NCBI GenBank assembly: GCA_021732845.1
Contig: JAKFUF010000010.1
Coordinates: 1-64,000 of the forward strand
Reading direction: 5' to 3'
Source of the DNA: Planctomycetaceae bacterium
GTDB lineage: Bacteria; Planctomycetota; Planctomycetia; Planctomycetales; Planctomycetaceae
Length of the DNA: 64,000 bases
The notes under the pieces were generated by a model. It had not been told where the DNA came from, searched no databases, and saw only the letters and a program-made list of their open reading frames with translations. Positions 4,791 through 52,016 of the stretch are shown here, one piece after another; within the stretch, counting starts at the first letter, position 1; each line of letters opens with the position of its first letter. Position numbers and translations under genes: made by a program.

Positions 4791-6182
4791 ATGCAGAGAC
4801 AGAAAATCGCCGCAGTTCTCAAGAACAGTGCGGTGGGGTCGGAACTCGATGTCCGTGGCTGGGTCCGGACCAAGCGCGAATCCAAGCAGGGGTTCGCCTT
4901 TGTCGAACTCAACGACGGCAGTTGCTTCGCCAGCCTGCAGGTCGTGATCGACCAGTCGGTCCCCAACTACGCCGAACTGATGCAGCAGTTGACCACCGGG
5001 GCCAGCCTGCGGGCGATCGGCGAACTGAAGGCCTCGCCCGCCAAGGGGCAGACCGTCGAGCTGCATGCCAAGTCGGTGCAGGTCTACGGCACCGCCGACG
5101 CCGAGAAATATCCGCTGCAGAAGAAGCAGCATAGTTTCGAATTTCTGCGCGAGATCGCCCATCTGCGCTCGCGAACCAACACGTTCGGCGCGATCGCCCG
5201 CGTCCGCAACGCGGTAAGCAGCTCGATCCACAATTTCTTCCAGAGCCGTGGCTTCCTGTATCTGCATGCCCCGATCATCACCACCAGCGACTGCGAAGGC
5301 GCGGGGCAGATGTTTCAGGTCACCACGCTCGACCTGGCGAAGCTGGCGCACTCGAAGACGGATGTCGATTTCACTCAGGATTTCTTCGGCAAGCGGGCCT
5401 CCCTGACGGTCAGCGGCCAGTTGGAGGCCGAAACGGTCGCCTGCTCGGTGGGCGACTGCTACACGTTCGGCCCCACGTTCCGCGCGGAGAATTCAAACAC
5501 CGCACGGCACCTGGCCGAGTTCTGGATGGTCGAGCCGGAAATGCCGTTCTACGAGCTGACCGACAACATGCAGCTCGCCGAGAGTTTTATCCGCACCACC
5601 ATCCGCGAGGTGCTGGAACACTGCCCGGAGGACATGGCGTTTTTCAACCAGCGGATCGACACCACCATATTGGAGACGCTCCGGAACATCGTCGAACACG
5701 ACTTCATCCGCCTGCCGTACACCGAGGCGGTCGACATTCTGCAGAAATGCGGCCAGAAGTTCGACTACCCGGTCTCTTGGGGGATCGACCTGCAGTCGGA
5801 ACATGAACGCTATCTGACCGAGCAGCACTTCAAGCAGCCGGTCATCCTGTTCGACTATCCGCGGACGCTGAAGCCGTTTTACATGCGGTGCAACGACGAT
5901 GGCAAAACCGTGCGGGCGATGGACGTGCTGGTCCCGCGCGTCGGCGAGATCATCGGCGGCAGCCAGCGTGAAGAGCGGCTGGACGTGCTGCTGAGCCGCA
6001 TGGCCGAGTGCCACCTGAACCCCGAGGAATACTGGTGGTATGTCGACCTGCGGCGCTACGGCACCGTACCGCATGCCGGCTTCGGCTTGGGGTTGGAACG
6101 CCTGCTGTTACTGCTGACGGGAATGGCGAACATTCGCGACGTGATCCCGTTCCCCAGAACGCCCAAGCACGCGGAGTTTTAG
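4791..6182 (+). CDS. asnS: Asparaginyl-tRNA synthetase
   Basis: A 463-residue class IIb aminoacyl-tRNA synthetase, matching the usual length of bacterial AsnRS (about 466). It charges tRNA-Asn with asparagine in the cytoplasm. The N-terminal OB-fold anticodon-binding domain covers roughly residues 10-115 ([11 protein letters not shown]). The catalytic domain shows motif 2 ([21 protein letters not shown] region, FRAENS being the diagnostic part) and motif 3 (GFGLGLERL) followed by the AsnRS-type ending [10 protein letters not shown]. The ATG at 4791 is chosen because the family start aligns there; an open stretch upstream lacks similarity. It appears monocistronic and is followed by intergenic hairpin repeats. 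Confidence 0.96.
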
Positions 6183-6193
6183 CCACGGGTATT

Positions 6194-6369
6194 GTAGTGT
6201 GGGCTTCAGCCCACTTTGGGTCGATTTGAACGGCCTGGGAAGGCCAGTTTTTGAAGATGGCGAACGCTGAATCAGCCGGAGGCCGTTAGGCCCCGGTTCT
6301 ACCCGTGCCAAATAGATAGCGGCGATCACGCAAATTCGGGAACCGGACGCTAACGCGTTCCGGCTGATT
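6194..6369. repeat. Two intergenic palindromic repeats after asnS
   Basis: First, a TGGGCTTCAGCCCA hairpin at about 6200-6215, the same design as the GTTGGCTTCAGCCAAC hairpin of the 13.8 kb array. Second, at 6271-6369, an element beginning ATCAGCCGGAGGCCGTTAGG and ending GGACGCTAACGCGTTCCGGCTGAT, whose ends are imperfect reverse complements. A second copy of the latter is at 35050-35155. No gene is supported in 6183-6422. Confidence 0.8.
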
Positions 6370-12471: not shown

Positions 12472-12625
12472 AATCTCAAATTTCAGAGTTCAAATTTCAC
12501 AGTAAAATACTTGTCGCAGCATCCACACTGTGGGGCAACAGTTACATTCGCGCCATTGAAGCTCAGTCGACAGTTCGGTGTGGCTGAACAGACTGTGAAA
12601 TTTGAGATATTTGAGATTTGAAATT
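12472..12625. repeat. Inverted repeat with TTTCACAGT arms
   Basis: The left arm 12472-12503 (AATCTCAAATTTCAGAG... ending TTTCACAGT) pairs with the right arm 12592-12625 (ACTGTGAAATTTGAGATA... onward), about 32 bases each with a few mismatches. Similar arms occur at 4600-4627 and 48086-48113. It lies between the divergent sigma-factor and glycosyltransferase genes; no further gene is seen in 12258-12716. Confidence 0.8.
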
Positions 12626-12716: not shown

Positions 12717-13838
12717 ATGTCGCAGCGTCTCAAAGTGTTGCTGGTCATCCCCACGCTCGATCAGTCCGGGGCGGAGAAGCAATTGACGCTGCTGGCAACA
12801 GGCTTGCCGCGCGAGGCGTTCGATGTGCATGTGTTCGCCCTGACCCGCGGCGGCCCCTATGCCGAGACTTTGCAGGCGGCGGGGATTCCCGTGACGGTGT
12901 TCGGCAAGCGGTTCAAGTTTGACCCCGGCGTCCTGCGCCGCCTCAAGCGGGCGATCCTCGCCCTGAAACCTGATGTCGTCCACCCGTGGCTCTTTGCCGC
13001 CAACGCCTACGTCCGCCTCGCCCTGGGCCGCCGCCCCGCCATCCCGATCATTGTCTCGGAACGCTGCGTCGATACTTGGAAGAGCCGCTGGCAACTGTGG
13101 CTCGATCGCTGGCTGGCTCCGCGTGCGGCAATGCTCGTGGGAAATTCACCGCCCGTCGTCGACTATTACCGCGCCCTCGGCTTTTCGCCAGAGCGTTCAC
13201 TGGCGATCCCCAATGGAATGCCTCTGCCGCCCCCCCTTTCGTCCGCCGAGCGCCCACAGGCCAAGACAGCGGCGCTCAACAAGCTGGGATTGGATCCGAA
13301 CGTCTTTGTCGTCGGCTATGTCGGCCGACTGGCACCACAGAAGCGGGTGGAAGACCTCGTCTGGGCCTTTGAACTGCTGCGGATCATCCAACCGCAAACC
13401 GCGTTTCTGATTGTTGGCGATGGTCCGGAGCGCGCCCGGCTGGAGAGTTTTTGTGCGCAGATCAAGCTCATGGATCAGGTCCGGTTTCTCGGCCACCGGG
13501 CGGATGCCAGCGCGTGGCTCACCGTGTTCGATGCCTTCTGGCTGGGCAGTGCCTTCGAGGGACAATCCAACAGTCTGATGGAAGCAATGGCCTGTGGCTT
13601 GCCCTCCGTTGTCAGTGACATCGCCCCCAATCGGGAACTGATCACCGACAACGAAACCGGTCTCGTGGTCCCCGTGGGCGACCGCGCCGCGTTCACAAAG
13701 GCCACACAACGGCTGATGCTGGAACCGGAACTGGCCGCCCGCCTGGGTGCGGCAGCCCGTTCCAAAATCGAAACCGAATTCAGTGTTTCGAAAATGGTGG
13801 AGCGCTACGCGGAGGTGTATCGAAGCGTCGTCCCGTAG
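12717..13838 (+). CDS. Glycosyltransferase family 4 (GT-B)
   Basis: A 373-residue GT4-type retaining glycosyltransferase with two Rossmann-like halves. The N-terminal acceptor domain starts KVLLVIPTLDQSGAEKQL. The C-terminal domain shows VGYVGRLAPQKRVEDLV, then VGDGPERARLE, and the donor-binding E-x7-E region (FEGQSNSLMEAMACGLP). Such enzymes build lipopolysaccharide, exopolysaccharide or glycolipids in the cytoplasm using nucleotide sugars; the substrate cannot be told. The ATG at 12717 is chosen because the family begins there; the upstream extension runs into the repeat. The stop TAG at 13836-13838 lies inside the first unit of the 48-bp tandem array. Confidence 0.92.
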   Translation: MSQRLKVLLVIPTLDQSGAEKQLTLLATGLPREAFDVHVFALTRGGPYAETLQAAGIPVTVFGKRFKFDPGVLRRLKRAILALKPDVVHPWLFAANAYVRLALGRRPAIPIIVSERCVDTWKSRWQLWLDRWLAPRAAMLVGNSPPVVDYYRALGFSPERSLAIPNGMPLPPPLSSAERPQAKTAALNKLGLDPNVFVVGYVGRLAPQKRVEDLVWAFELLRIIQPQTAFLIVGDGPERARLESFCAQIKLMDQVRFLGHRADASAWLTVFDAFWLGSAFEGQSNSLMEAMACGLPSVVSDIAPNRELITDNETGLVVPVGDRAAFTKATQRLMLEPELAARLGAAARSKIETEFSVSKMVERYAEVYRSVVP

Positions 13839-14215
13839 CGTTGGCTTCAGCCAACTCGGTGAACCGTCGGCGTGGACCTCCCGTAGCGTTGGCTTCAGCC
13901 AACTCGGGCAACCGTCGGCGTGGACCTCCCGCAGCGTCGGCTTCAGCCAACTCGGGCAACCGTCGGCGTGGACCTCCCGCAGCGTTGGCTTCAGCCAACT
14001 CGGGCAACCGTCGGCGTGGGCCTCCCGTAGCGTTGGCTTCAGCCAACTCGGTGAACCGTCGGCGTGGACCTCCCGTAGCGTTGGCTTCAGCCAACTCGGG
14101 CAACCGTCGGCGTGGACCTCCCGCAGCGTTGGCTTCAGCCAACTCGGTGAACCGTCGGCGTGGACCTCCCGTAGCGTTGGCTTCAGCCAACTCGGGCAAC
14201 CGTCGGCGTGGACCT
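13832..14215. repeat. Eight-copy 48-bp tandem repeat with internal hairpins
   Basis: Eight contiguous 48-bp units begin at 13832, 13880, 13928, 13976, 14024, 14072, 14120 and 14168. Each starts CCCG(T/C)AGCGT and contains the perfect hairpin GTTGGCTTCAGCCAAC (one unit has GTCGGC), ending in GTCGGCGTGGACCT. Units differ at only a few positions (GTAGCG or GCAGCG; CGGTGAACC or CGGGCAACC). Because 48 is divisible by three, several frames on both strands stay open across it, but these merely repeat 16 residues. An inverted partial copy is at 14242-14259. Confidence 0.95.
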
Positions 14216-14241
14216 GACCGGGGATCCACACCGTCCGGGTG

Positions 14242-14259
14242 GGCTGAAGCCAACGCTAC
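14242..14259 (-). repeat. Inverted single copy of the array hairpin
   Basis: GGCTGAAGCCAACGCTAC is the exact reverse complement of the GTAGCGTTGGCTTCAGCC core of the array. The CTA at 14256-14258 is the stop codon (TAG) of the converging SDR gene. Confidence 0.9.
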
Positions 14260-15041
14260 CATGCTGTCCATCCCCCGTCGATCGTGAGGTTCTGGCCGGT
14301 CATGTAGCTGCTGGCGGCACTCGCCAGAAAGACGATCGCCCCCTTGAGTTCCTCGGCGTGCCCCATGCGGCCCATCGGGCTCTTGGTGCAAAGGCGTTCG
14401 ACCATGGCGGCTGGGGCCTTCTCGCTGGGGAACGGGCCGGGGCTCAGGCAGTTGACGCGGACGTTGTCTTTCCCCCAATAGACCGCCAGGTGCCGGGTCA
14501 TGTGAATCAATCCGCCTTTGAGCGTGTGGTAAGCCACGGGGCTGCCTGGACAAACGCCGGCATAGGCATCGGGATAGGACGCGACCTGGCCATACATCGA
14601 GCCCAGCAGAACCACGCTGCCCGGTGCGTTCCGCTGCACCACATGGTCACGCAGGAGACGGGACAGCACGAAATACCCCGTTGCATTTCCCAGATGCCGC
14701 GTGAACTGTTCCGCCGTCACGGTCGTCCAATCGTTCCCCAGTGCTTCGTGGCCATTGTTGACCAGCACGTCAATCTGCCCGACGGCGGCCAGCGCATCCC
14801 GAAACTGTTTCTCGACGATGTCGGGCTGCATGTGATCCAACGCGGCCCCGACATGCCCCTTGCCGGGCAGGGCGGCGGCGGCCTCCTGCGCCCGGTGTTC
14901 ATCGCGGCTGGTCAGCAGGACCCGCGCCCCGGCCTCCGCCAGCGCCCGCGCCATCGCCGACCCCAGATGCCCCGTCCCGCCGCTGATCAGCGCGGTCTTG
15001 CCGGTGAGATCGAACAACTGCTGGATGGTCGCTTCGCTCAT
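14256..15041 (-). CDS. SDR family oxidoreductase
   Basis: A 261-residue classical short-chain dehydrogenase/reductase. The cofactor loop is ISGGTGHLG (the TGxxxGxG variant), followed by a TSRDE segment after strand 2, NNGHE in place of NNAG, the catalytic Ser in LLGSMYG, and YxxxK as YHTLK. The C terminus ends in the family-typical LTIDGGWTAW. The ATG at 15041 is preferred over one nine codons upstream because GAGGG lies five bases before it. The substrate is unknown; these enzymes reduce or oxidise sugars, polyols, ketones or acyl groups with NAD(P). The gene converges with the GT4 gene across the 48-bp array. The 303 bases between its start and the next gene show no other feature. Confidence 0.9.
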   Translation of the reverse strand: MSEATIQQLFDLTGKTALISGGTGHLGSAMARALAEAGARVLLTSRDEHRAQEAAAALPGKGHVGAALDHMQPDIVEKQFRDALAAVGQIDVLVNNGHEALGNDWTTVTAEQFTRHLGNATGYFVLSRLLRDHVVQRNAPGSVVLLGSMYGQVASYPDAYAGVCPGSPVAYHTLKGGLIHMTRHLAVYWGKDNVRVNCLSPGPFPSEKAPAAMVERLCTKSPMGRMGHAEELKGAIVFLASAASSYMTGQNLTIDGGWTAW

Positions 15042-15344
15042 GAAAAGCCCTCGGGAAGTTGAAGTCATTGCCGTGGATCACCGGCACGAACGCGCACGCC
15101 ATCCATTCCAACGGATTCCTCGGGTTCGCGTTGCCCCGCCAGATTGGCAAATTCGCATCAACGGATGCGTGCGCCAAGGGCCGCACCAACGCGACTCAGG
15201 ACACCGGCAAGAATCAGTCATCTTTCTAGCGCACTTCCTTTCAGCCACGCTCATCGCCACCACCAATTGCCGCAGGCTTGCCCCGTCGATGATGTCTCTC
15301 CACAATCTGGACAGGTTCCCATTTGTCTCTTGGCGGAGCGGGTC

Positions 15345-40823: not shown

Positions 40824-40997
40824 AACCCCGACAGCGGATGAGGAAGGTGGCGCAAGCCACCCATCCGCGGCAGGGGTTCCGCAGCGAGCAAAACTGACCC
40901 GCGAGCGAGGAACCCCGATAGCGGATGAGGAAGGTGGCGCAAGCCACCCATCCGCGCCAGGGGTTCCGCAGCGAGCAAAACTGACCAGCGAGCGAAC
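40824..40997. repeat. Tandem 87-bp duplication with GGTGGC hairpins
   Basis: Units 40824-40910 and 40911-40997 are nearly identical. Each contains GGTGGCGCAAGCCACC, a 6-bp hairpin with a 4-base loop, and the words AGGGGTTCCGCAGCGAGC and AAAACTGACC. Frames through it are open on both strands because the period is a multiple of three; I do not regard them as genes. Confidence 0.9.
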
Positions 40998-51953: not shown

Positions 51954-52016
51954 CATTGCCCGGCCAGAGACCGCAAAGTAGCCGAGTCACTCCGTGACTC
52001 GACACTACTCAGCGCG

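Follow-up and report, generated by a model that had tools for sequence, protein, structure and literature searches.

GTAG-type repetitive extragenic palindromes at gene ends of a planctomycete, and an array that supplies the stop codons of two convergent genes

In this work we focus on a tandem array of palindromic repeats that lies between two convergent genes of a Planctomycetaceae bacterium (assembly GCA_021732845.1), within the first 64,000 nucleotides of contig JAKFUF010000010.1, a stretch referred to below as the window. The plus-strand neighbor is a group 1 glycosyltransferase gene (12717-13838), identified by a Pfam match, whose start was set at the ATG before SQRLK whereas the mechanical open reading frame (ORF) begins at a TTG at 12618. 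The minus-strand neighbor, also a Pfam match, is a short-chain dehydrogenase (SDR) gene (14256-15068) that ends in ...GWTAW followed by TAG. The array itself, on the plus strand, was delimited by Tandem Repeats Finder (TRF) and by comparison of its units, and consists of eight 48-bp units at 13831-14214. Run over the window, TRF returned 13831-14215 with a period of 48, 8.0 copies and 94% matches. This agrees with an original prediction, made by a model from the letters alone, which had described eight such units between convergent genes and had placed both stop codons within the repeat. The latter was verified as well, with the GTAG at the left edge of the array giving the glycosyltransferase TAG (13836-13838) and the CTAC at the right edge giving, on the minus strand, the SDR TAG (14258-14256).

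Each unit is composed of a 21-nt repetitive extragenic palindrome (REP) and 27 nt of inner sequence. The REP reads GTAG or GCAG, one base, a 7-bp stem, a TC loop and the stem again; in the first of them (13835-13855, plus strand), which begins with GTAG, letters 2-4 are the glycosyltransferase stop. GTAG is kept in units 1, 2, 5, 6 and 8 and is replaced by GCAG in units 3, 4 and 7. The perfect 7-bp hairpin with a 2-base loop that had been predicted for every unit is present in seven of the eight, with unit 3 (13931) pairing at six of seven positions, as does the inverted copy at the right edge (14239-14259, minus strand). An unpaired GTAG in front of a short palindrome is what characterizes REPs of the GTAG type, a class to which the original prediction had not assigned the repeat. 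Folded as RNA, the REP gives a 6-bp stem with a 4-base loop. Allowing up to three mismatches, the motif is found 10 times in the window, where shuffled sequence would give 0.07: the eight array units, the inverted copy and a lone REP with two mismatches at 6194-6214 on the plus strand, 11 nt past the end of a plus-strand gene whose stop is TAG (6180-6182).

A REPIN is a paired REP. The inverted copy had been predicted to be a single one, and while its inversion stands, it is in fact the right-hand REP of such a pair: the left REP of unit 8, the inner sequence and the inverted REP together make up a complete 89-bp REPIN (14171-14259, without a strand of its own), in which GTAG faces outward at both ends, the arrangement of REPINs and of bacterial interspersed mosaic elements (BIMEs). 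It aligns over its full length (GTAGCG to CGCTAC) with a REPIN of 99 bp at C8:27186-27284 in the same genome (C numbers denote its contigs). Because the match runs end to end, the core of the array is best seen as a REPIN whose left half was amplified eightfold. Units 1 and 5 are identical to each other, as are units 2, 6 and 8. The genome is a draft in which arrays may be misassembled, and this applies to the count of eight units too.

The family of the array, family 1 below, is present in high copy number and dispersed, as is expected of GTAG-type REPs. Exact matches number 292 in the 9.25 Mb (262 contigs) of the organism's own genome, and the reversed pattern yields none there or in any of the 61 genomes of the same bacterial family that were scanned. 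Among these genomes, exact matches are found in eight, including the own genome with 292, G012 with 128, G074 with 30, G078 with 26 and G067 with 11, a distribution that is patchy. A repeat-blind sample of 2.4 Mb (100 kb from the start of each of contigs C1-C12 and 40 kb from the start of each of C13-C42) holds 94 REPs in 35 clusters, in which 72 of the 94 start with GTAG and alternating patterns (+-, +-+- and longer) are common. Most clusters (29/35) are extragenic; of the six called intragenic, three lie within weakly scored frames (coding scores 32-37).

With respect to stop codons, the placement of these REPs is strongly nonrandom. Genes in the sample were called with our own hexamer script (1,788 genes, 84% coding), and the six intragenic clusters as well as two ends without a flanking gene were set aside. 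An end was counted as near when it lay -4 to 20 nt from the stop, with -4 meaning in register, so that the TAG of the REP is itself the stop. GTAG ends that point toward the 3' end of a gene were near in 16 of 21 cases, six of them at -4, while none of 10 hairpin-side ends and none of 15 GTAG ends directed toward a gene 5' end were. In a larger set, consisting of the sample and 40 stretches chosen for holding REPs, the corresponding counts were 35/53 (14 at -4 and 21 at 2-20), 0/22 and 0/34; the first two differ with p = 4e-8. When placement was randomized within the same gaps, 2000 runs gave a mean of 15.6 and a maximum of 23 near ends, against 32 observed in 40 clusters. The original prediction had read from one locus that the repeats sit at gene ends and supply stops there, and the survey of distances to stop codons bears this out, with no sign of random placement.

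A frame rule accompanies this orientation rule. All 14 ends of the larger set that overlap a coding end sit in the frame in which TAG is read, which would have a probability of 2e-7 if the frames were equal; one further in-register end, C114:2552, was left out of the counts since a weak opposite-strand frame spans it. As to frames that read through a REP close to the end of a gene, only one candidate with a good coding score was found, at C13:26488, and it is a loose match 141 nt before a stop. Genes with a REP 2-20 nt downstream use mixed stops (11 TGA, 6 TAA and 4 TAG; n = 21), and of 1584 genes that have no REP at their end, 336 stop with TAG. An in-frame back-up stop was considered as the reason for the 2-20 nt spacing and was rejected, as TAG is in frame in 9/21 cases, not clearly more than one third.

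Of 81 ends with GTAG outward, 68 are preceded by C, and 60 by CC or TC. Such a dinucleotide flank occurs at 7/14 in-register ends and at 25/175 native G-TAG gene ends that lack a REP (p = 0.003), an excess that favors a GTAG brought in by the element over one that the host already had.

A candidate gene for the enzyme behind such an arrival, a REP-associated tyrosine transposase (RAYT), is found at C53:36342-37037 on the minus strand (4843-5538 in locus L199). It encodes 232 aa with a match to the NCBIfam RAYT model NF047646 at C53:36414-36728, and family-1 REP arrays lie on both sides of it (C53:35959-36276 and C53:37222-38565), which is the layout of a RAYT with its associated REPs, or REPtron. 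Five Y1_Tnp loci checked for REPs of the same family had none. By eye, the protein contains HVH and YIGRNPQKAGL, which we take to be the HUH motif and the segment with the catalytic tyrosine. Judged from its sequence and surroundings, this gene is the probable partner enzyme of the family-1 REPs. Its TAG stop directly adjoins a truncated REP, which gives the impression that the array extended outward from the 3' end of the gene.

Taken together, the array is very probably a REPIN of a GTAG-type REP family that was moved by a RAYT and then amplified locally. A RAYT, being a single-strand HUH/tyrosine transposase, would cut and rejoin single-stranded DNA and would place the element directly 3' of (C/T)C, so that GTAG forms the outer edge at both ends. 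Copies landing just past a stop in the sense direction would persist, as would copies landing at the end of a reading frame that then runs into the TAG, because the element brings its own stop exactly at the point of entry; selection against read-through may thus be the source of the frame rule. A head-to-head pair landing between convergent genes could provide one such stop per strand, as in the window, and the left half (the REP and 27 nt) would subsequently have been multiplied to eight by unequal exchange or slippage.

Several observations weigh against this reading. For singletons alone the orientation signal points in the same direction but is weaker, with 10/17 near on the GTAG side and 1/14 on the hairpin side (p = 0.007), and the genes of the survey were called with our own script. 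At the SDR junction the bases before GTAG are TG and not (C/T)C, and the SDR is one of 5/14 in-register ends without a C at this position, so that some sites may have made use of a GTAG of the host. The C53 protein scores 71.5 bits against NF047646, where the curated cut-off is 80, and 20.6 against Pfam Y1_Tnp, where it is 23, and a PDB search with it gave no match. Of the 13 NF047646 matches in the genome, only one lies inside a family-1 array among the positions compared. The insertion that the original prediction had proposed is in keeping with the dispersed copies, the flanking dinucleotide and the REP-bracketed RAYT gene, but no insertion event was seen: no close relative with an empty site was found, and insertion is therefore something we infer. 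Finally, the hairpin folds nearly alike in both orientations (-8.7 for a 26-nt stretch and -9.0 for a 21-nt stretch), so selection alone is not an obvious cause of the orientation rule.

Truncation was considered for five of the 14 TAG-supplied proteins; small truncations may be present in the other nine. No damage is visible in these five, and at least for the SDR the C-terminus is intact. The position of its C-terminal residue is identical in 42/42 close relatives (51 rows less nine excluded, namely the gene itself, one partial and seven distant; L041 and L222 among the 42 are one sequence), whose stop codons are TAG in 16, TGA in 13 and TAA in 13. Among named records, the three top-ranking relatives of the SDR over its full length are from Gemmataceae metagenome-assembled genomes, at 70-73% identity, which points to a probable Gemmataceae affiliation of the present genome. 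A REP scan with up to two mismatches over 43 SDR relative loci gave one match, at L229, which is upstream of the gene and not at its end. Compared with 19 relatives, the glycosyltransferase is shorter by 0 to 16 residues, and its length equals that of the nearest one. The remaining three proteins extend to or almost to the ends of their family models: phosphoenolpyruvate carboxykinase to 607/612, an M3 peptidase to 587/587 and a DUF1501 protein to 389/390.

The same contigs carry a second palindromic family, GTNGN-CGAGTCAC-TCC-GTGACTCG, in 47 clusters. Its GTNG ends directed toward a gene 3' end are within -4 to 20 nt in only 1/20 cases (Fisher p = 3e-6 against family 1), a contrast to be read with the fact that only part of its copies have a TAG (30/82 start with GTAG). 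Closeness to stops is thus not general to the palindromic repeats of this genome. Repeats of the form GTNGN-CGAGTCACTCCGTGACTCG belong to this second family and occur in the window at 51978-52001 and in locus L033 (on C57) at 510-1444, often as 144-bp head-to-head pairs; at C57 its long arrays flank a RAYT-like gene.

The placement of family 1 could also reflect a selected RNA function, in which a hairpin behind the stop would stall terminating ribosomes, shield the 3' end of the mRNA or end transcription, with mobility only supplying the copies. We regard this as possible but on the whole improbable. It would fit the occurrence of copies 20 nt or less from stops, and in E. coli a drop in translation has been reported for REPs located no more than 15 nt from a stop (PMC12306157, citing an earlier study). 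The array region also folds better than 100/100 shuffles (z -4.39), although such a value is expected of any array of palindromes. A role in transcription termination or transcript stability, which the original prediction had suggested, found no support in the sequence: a scan of 13500-14600 for intrinsic terminators (stem and T run) detected none, against a mean of 0.7 in shuffles. A promoter scan of the array found nothing, and an Rfam search of the window gave no matches at gathering score. Moreover, the hairpin is of nearly equal folding energy in its two orientations, yet only one of them is found at stops, and the palindromes of the second family lack this placement (1/20).

A true target preference is a further option, though an unlikely one. 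Here the RAYT or REP would seek gene ends through single-stranded DNA of the sense strand or through an existing G-TAG, so that placement reflects insertion and not survival. The strong orientation rule speaks for it, and so does the SDR, whose end is invariant and whose relatives have TAG at this point in 16/42 cases, meaning that the edge of the REP is a sequence the host may already have had. Against it stand the excess of (C/T)C at in-register ends over native G-TAG ends, the mixed stops upstream of REPs at 2-20 nt and the strand of singletons, which has no link with local GC skew and so gives no sign of a replication-strand bias. A bolder version, equally doubtful in our view, is that the family is a gene-end-seeking mobile element which enters the sense strand GTAG first and is slowly replacing the stops of the genome with its own in-frame TAGs, while the second RAYT/REP family in the same cell is not. 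That an ordinary intergenic stretch with a chance TAG was duplicated in tandem is barely conceivable. Slippage does make tandem arrays, and the share of TAG among REP-less gene ends shows that such stops are used anyway, but the 292 exact and dispersed copies, oriented and in register, and the RAYT gene inside an array do not fit it, and the genome survey refutes it.

That REPs supply TAG stops near ORF ends was already published in 2013, and the present array is a further case of that kind. Di Nocera et al. (2013; PMC3733652) reported GTAG-tagged REPs across several phyla, planctomycetes (R. baltica) included, less than 20 bp from ORF 3' ends and with termini that often provide a TAG stop. 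Family 1 resembles them, as far as the consulted part of that paper describes them, in its GTAG end, short perfect stem, TY-type loop and head-to-head pairs, as well as in clusters reiterated with flanking DNA, proximity to ORF ends and the supply of TAG. No orientation rule, frame rule or contrast between two families of one genome was seen in that part of the work; all three were measured here. A REP of Haemophilus influenzae, GTAGGGTGGGCTTcAGCCCACC, described with its RAYT in the excerpt consulted of PMC2817692, has nearly the same hairpin and loop; it starts with GTAGGG, whereas family 1 starts with GTAGCG or GTAGTG, and comes from a different phylum. Like REPINs in general, a kind of element treated in PMC3116915, those found here have two inverted REPs with GTAG outward and are dispersed as units; as differences, most loci here have inner sequences of their own, and one half was amplified without the other.

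In TnpAREP/RAYT biochemistry, according to the sections consulted of PMC8266576, GTAG guides the choice of cleavage site, which is CT or CA beside the REP. The C53 locus is like the REPtrons of that account in having a putative HUH/Tyr protein next to its REPs and differs from them in the CC or TC flank and in a candidate protein that falls below family cut-offs. Among works on planctomycete palindromic intergenic repeats, judged by titles and abstract openings, there was no obvious REP study, and in the portions of the literature examined no statement of the orientation rule or of an exact register count was found. The present analysis put figures on both of these, as well as on the (C/T)C that precedes GTAG and on how the two families differ.

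Other repeats were noted along the way. One subclass of family-1 REPs has a near-identical inner sequence and forms alternating arrays with a period of about 183 bp, several of them at contig ends (C1:815-1067, C5:110-799, C10:81305-81557, C11:52280-52721, C24:1-250 and C155:19619-20420); the near-identity and the location suggest that this subclass expanded more recently and that its arrays break the assembly. Outside both families, the window contains two 87-bp tandem units at 40824-40995 with the palindrome GGTGGC-GCAA-GCCACC and conserved flanks. Long open frames with 16-residue repeats cross the array on both strands (13197-14287) because its period of 48 equals 16 codons; they are regarded as by-products and likely sources of false gene calls. 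More generally, arrays with a period divisible by three yield long false reading frames, of which annotators should be wary.

With these data, a published remark on REP-borne TAG codons is now expressed in numbers, through orientation, register, the flanking dinucleotide and a second family that serves as an internal control. The question of whether REPs come to lie at gene ends through targeted insertion, survival or function can thereby be put to the test in a genome where the probable partner transposase is encoded as well.
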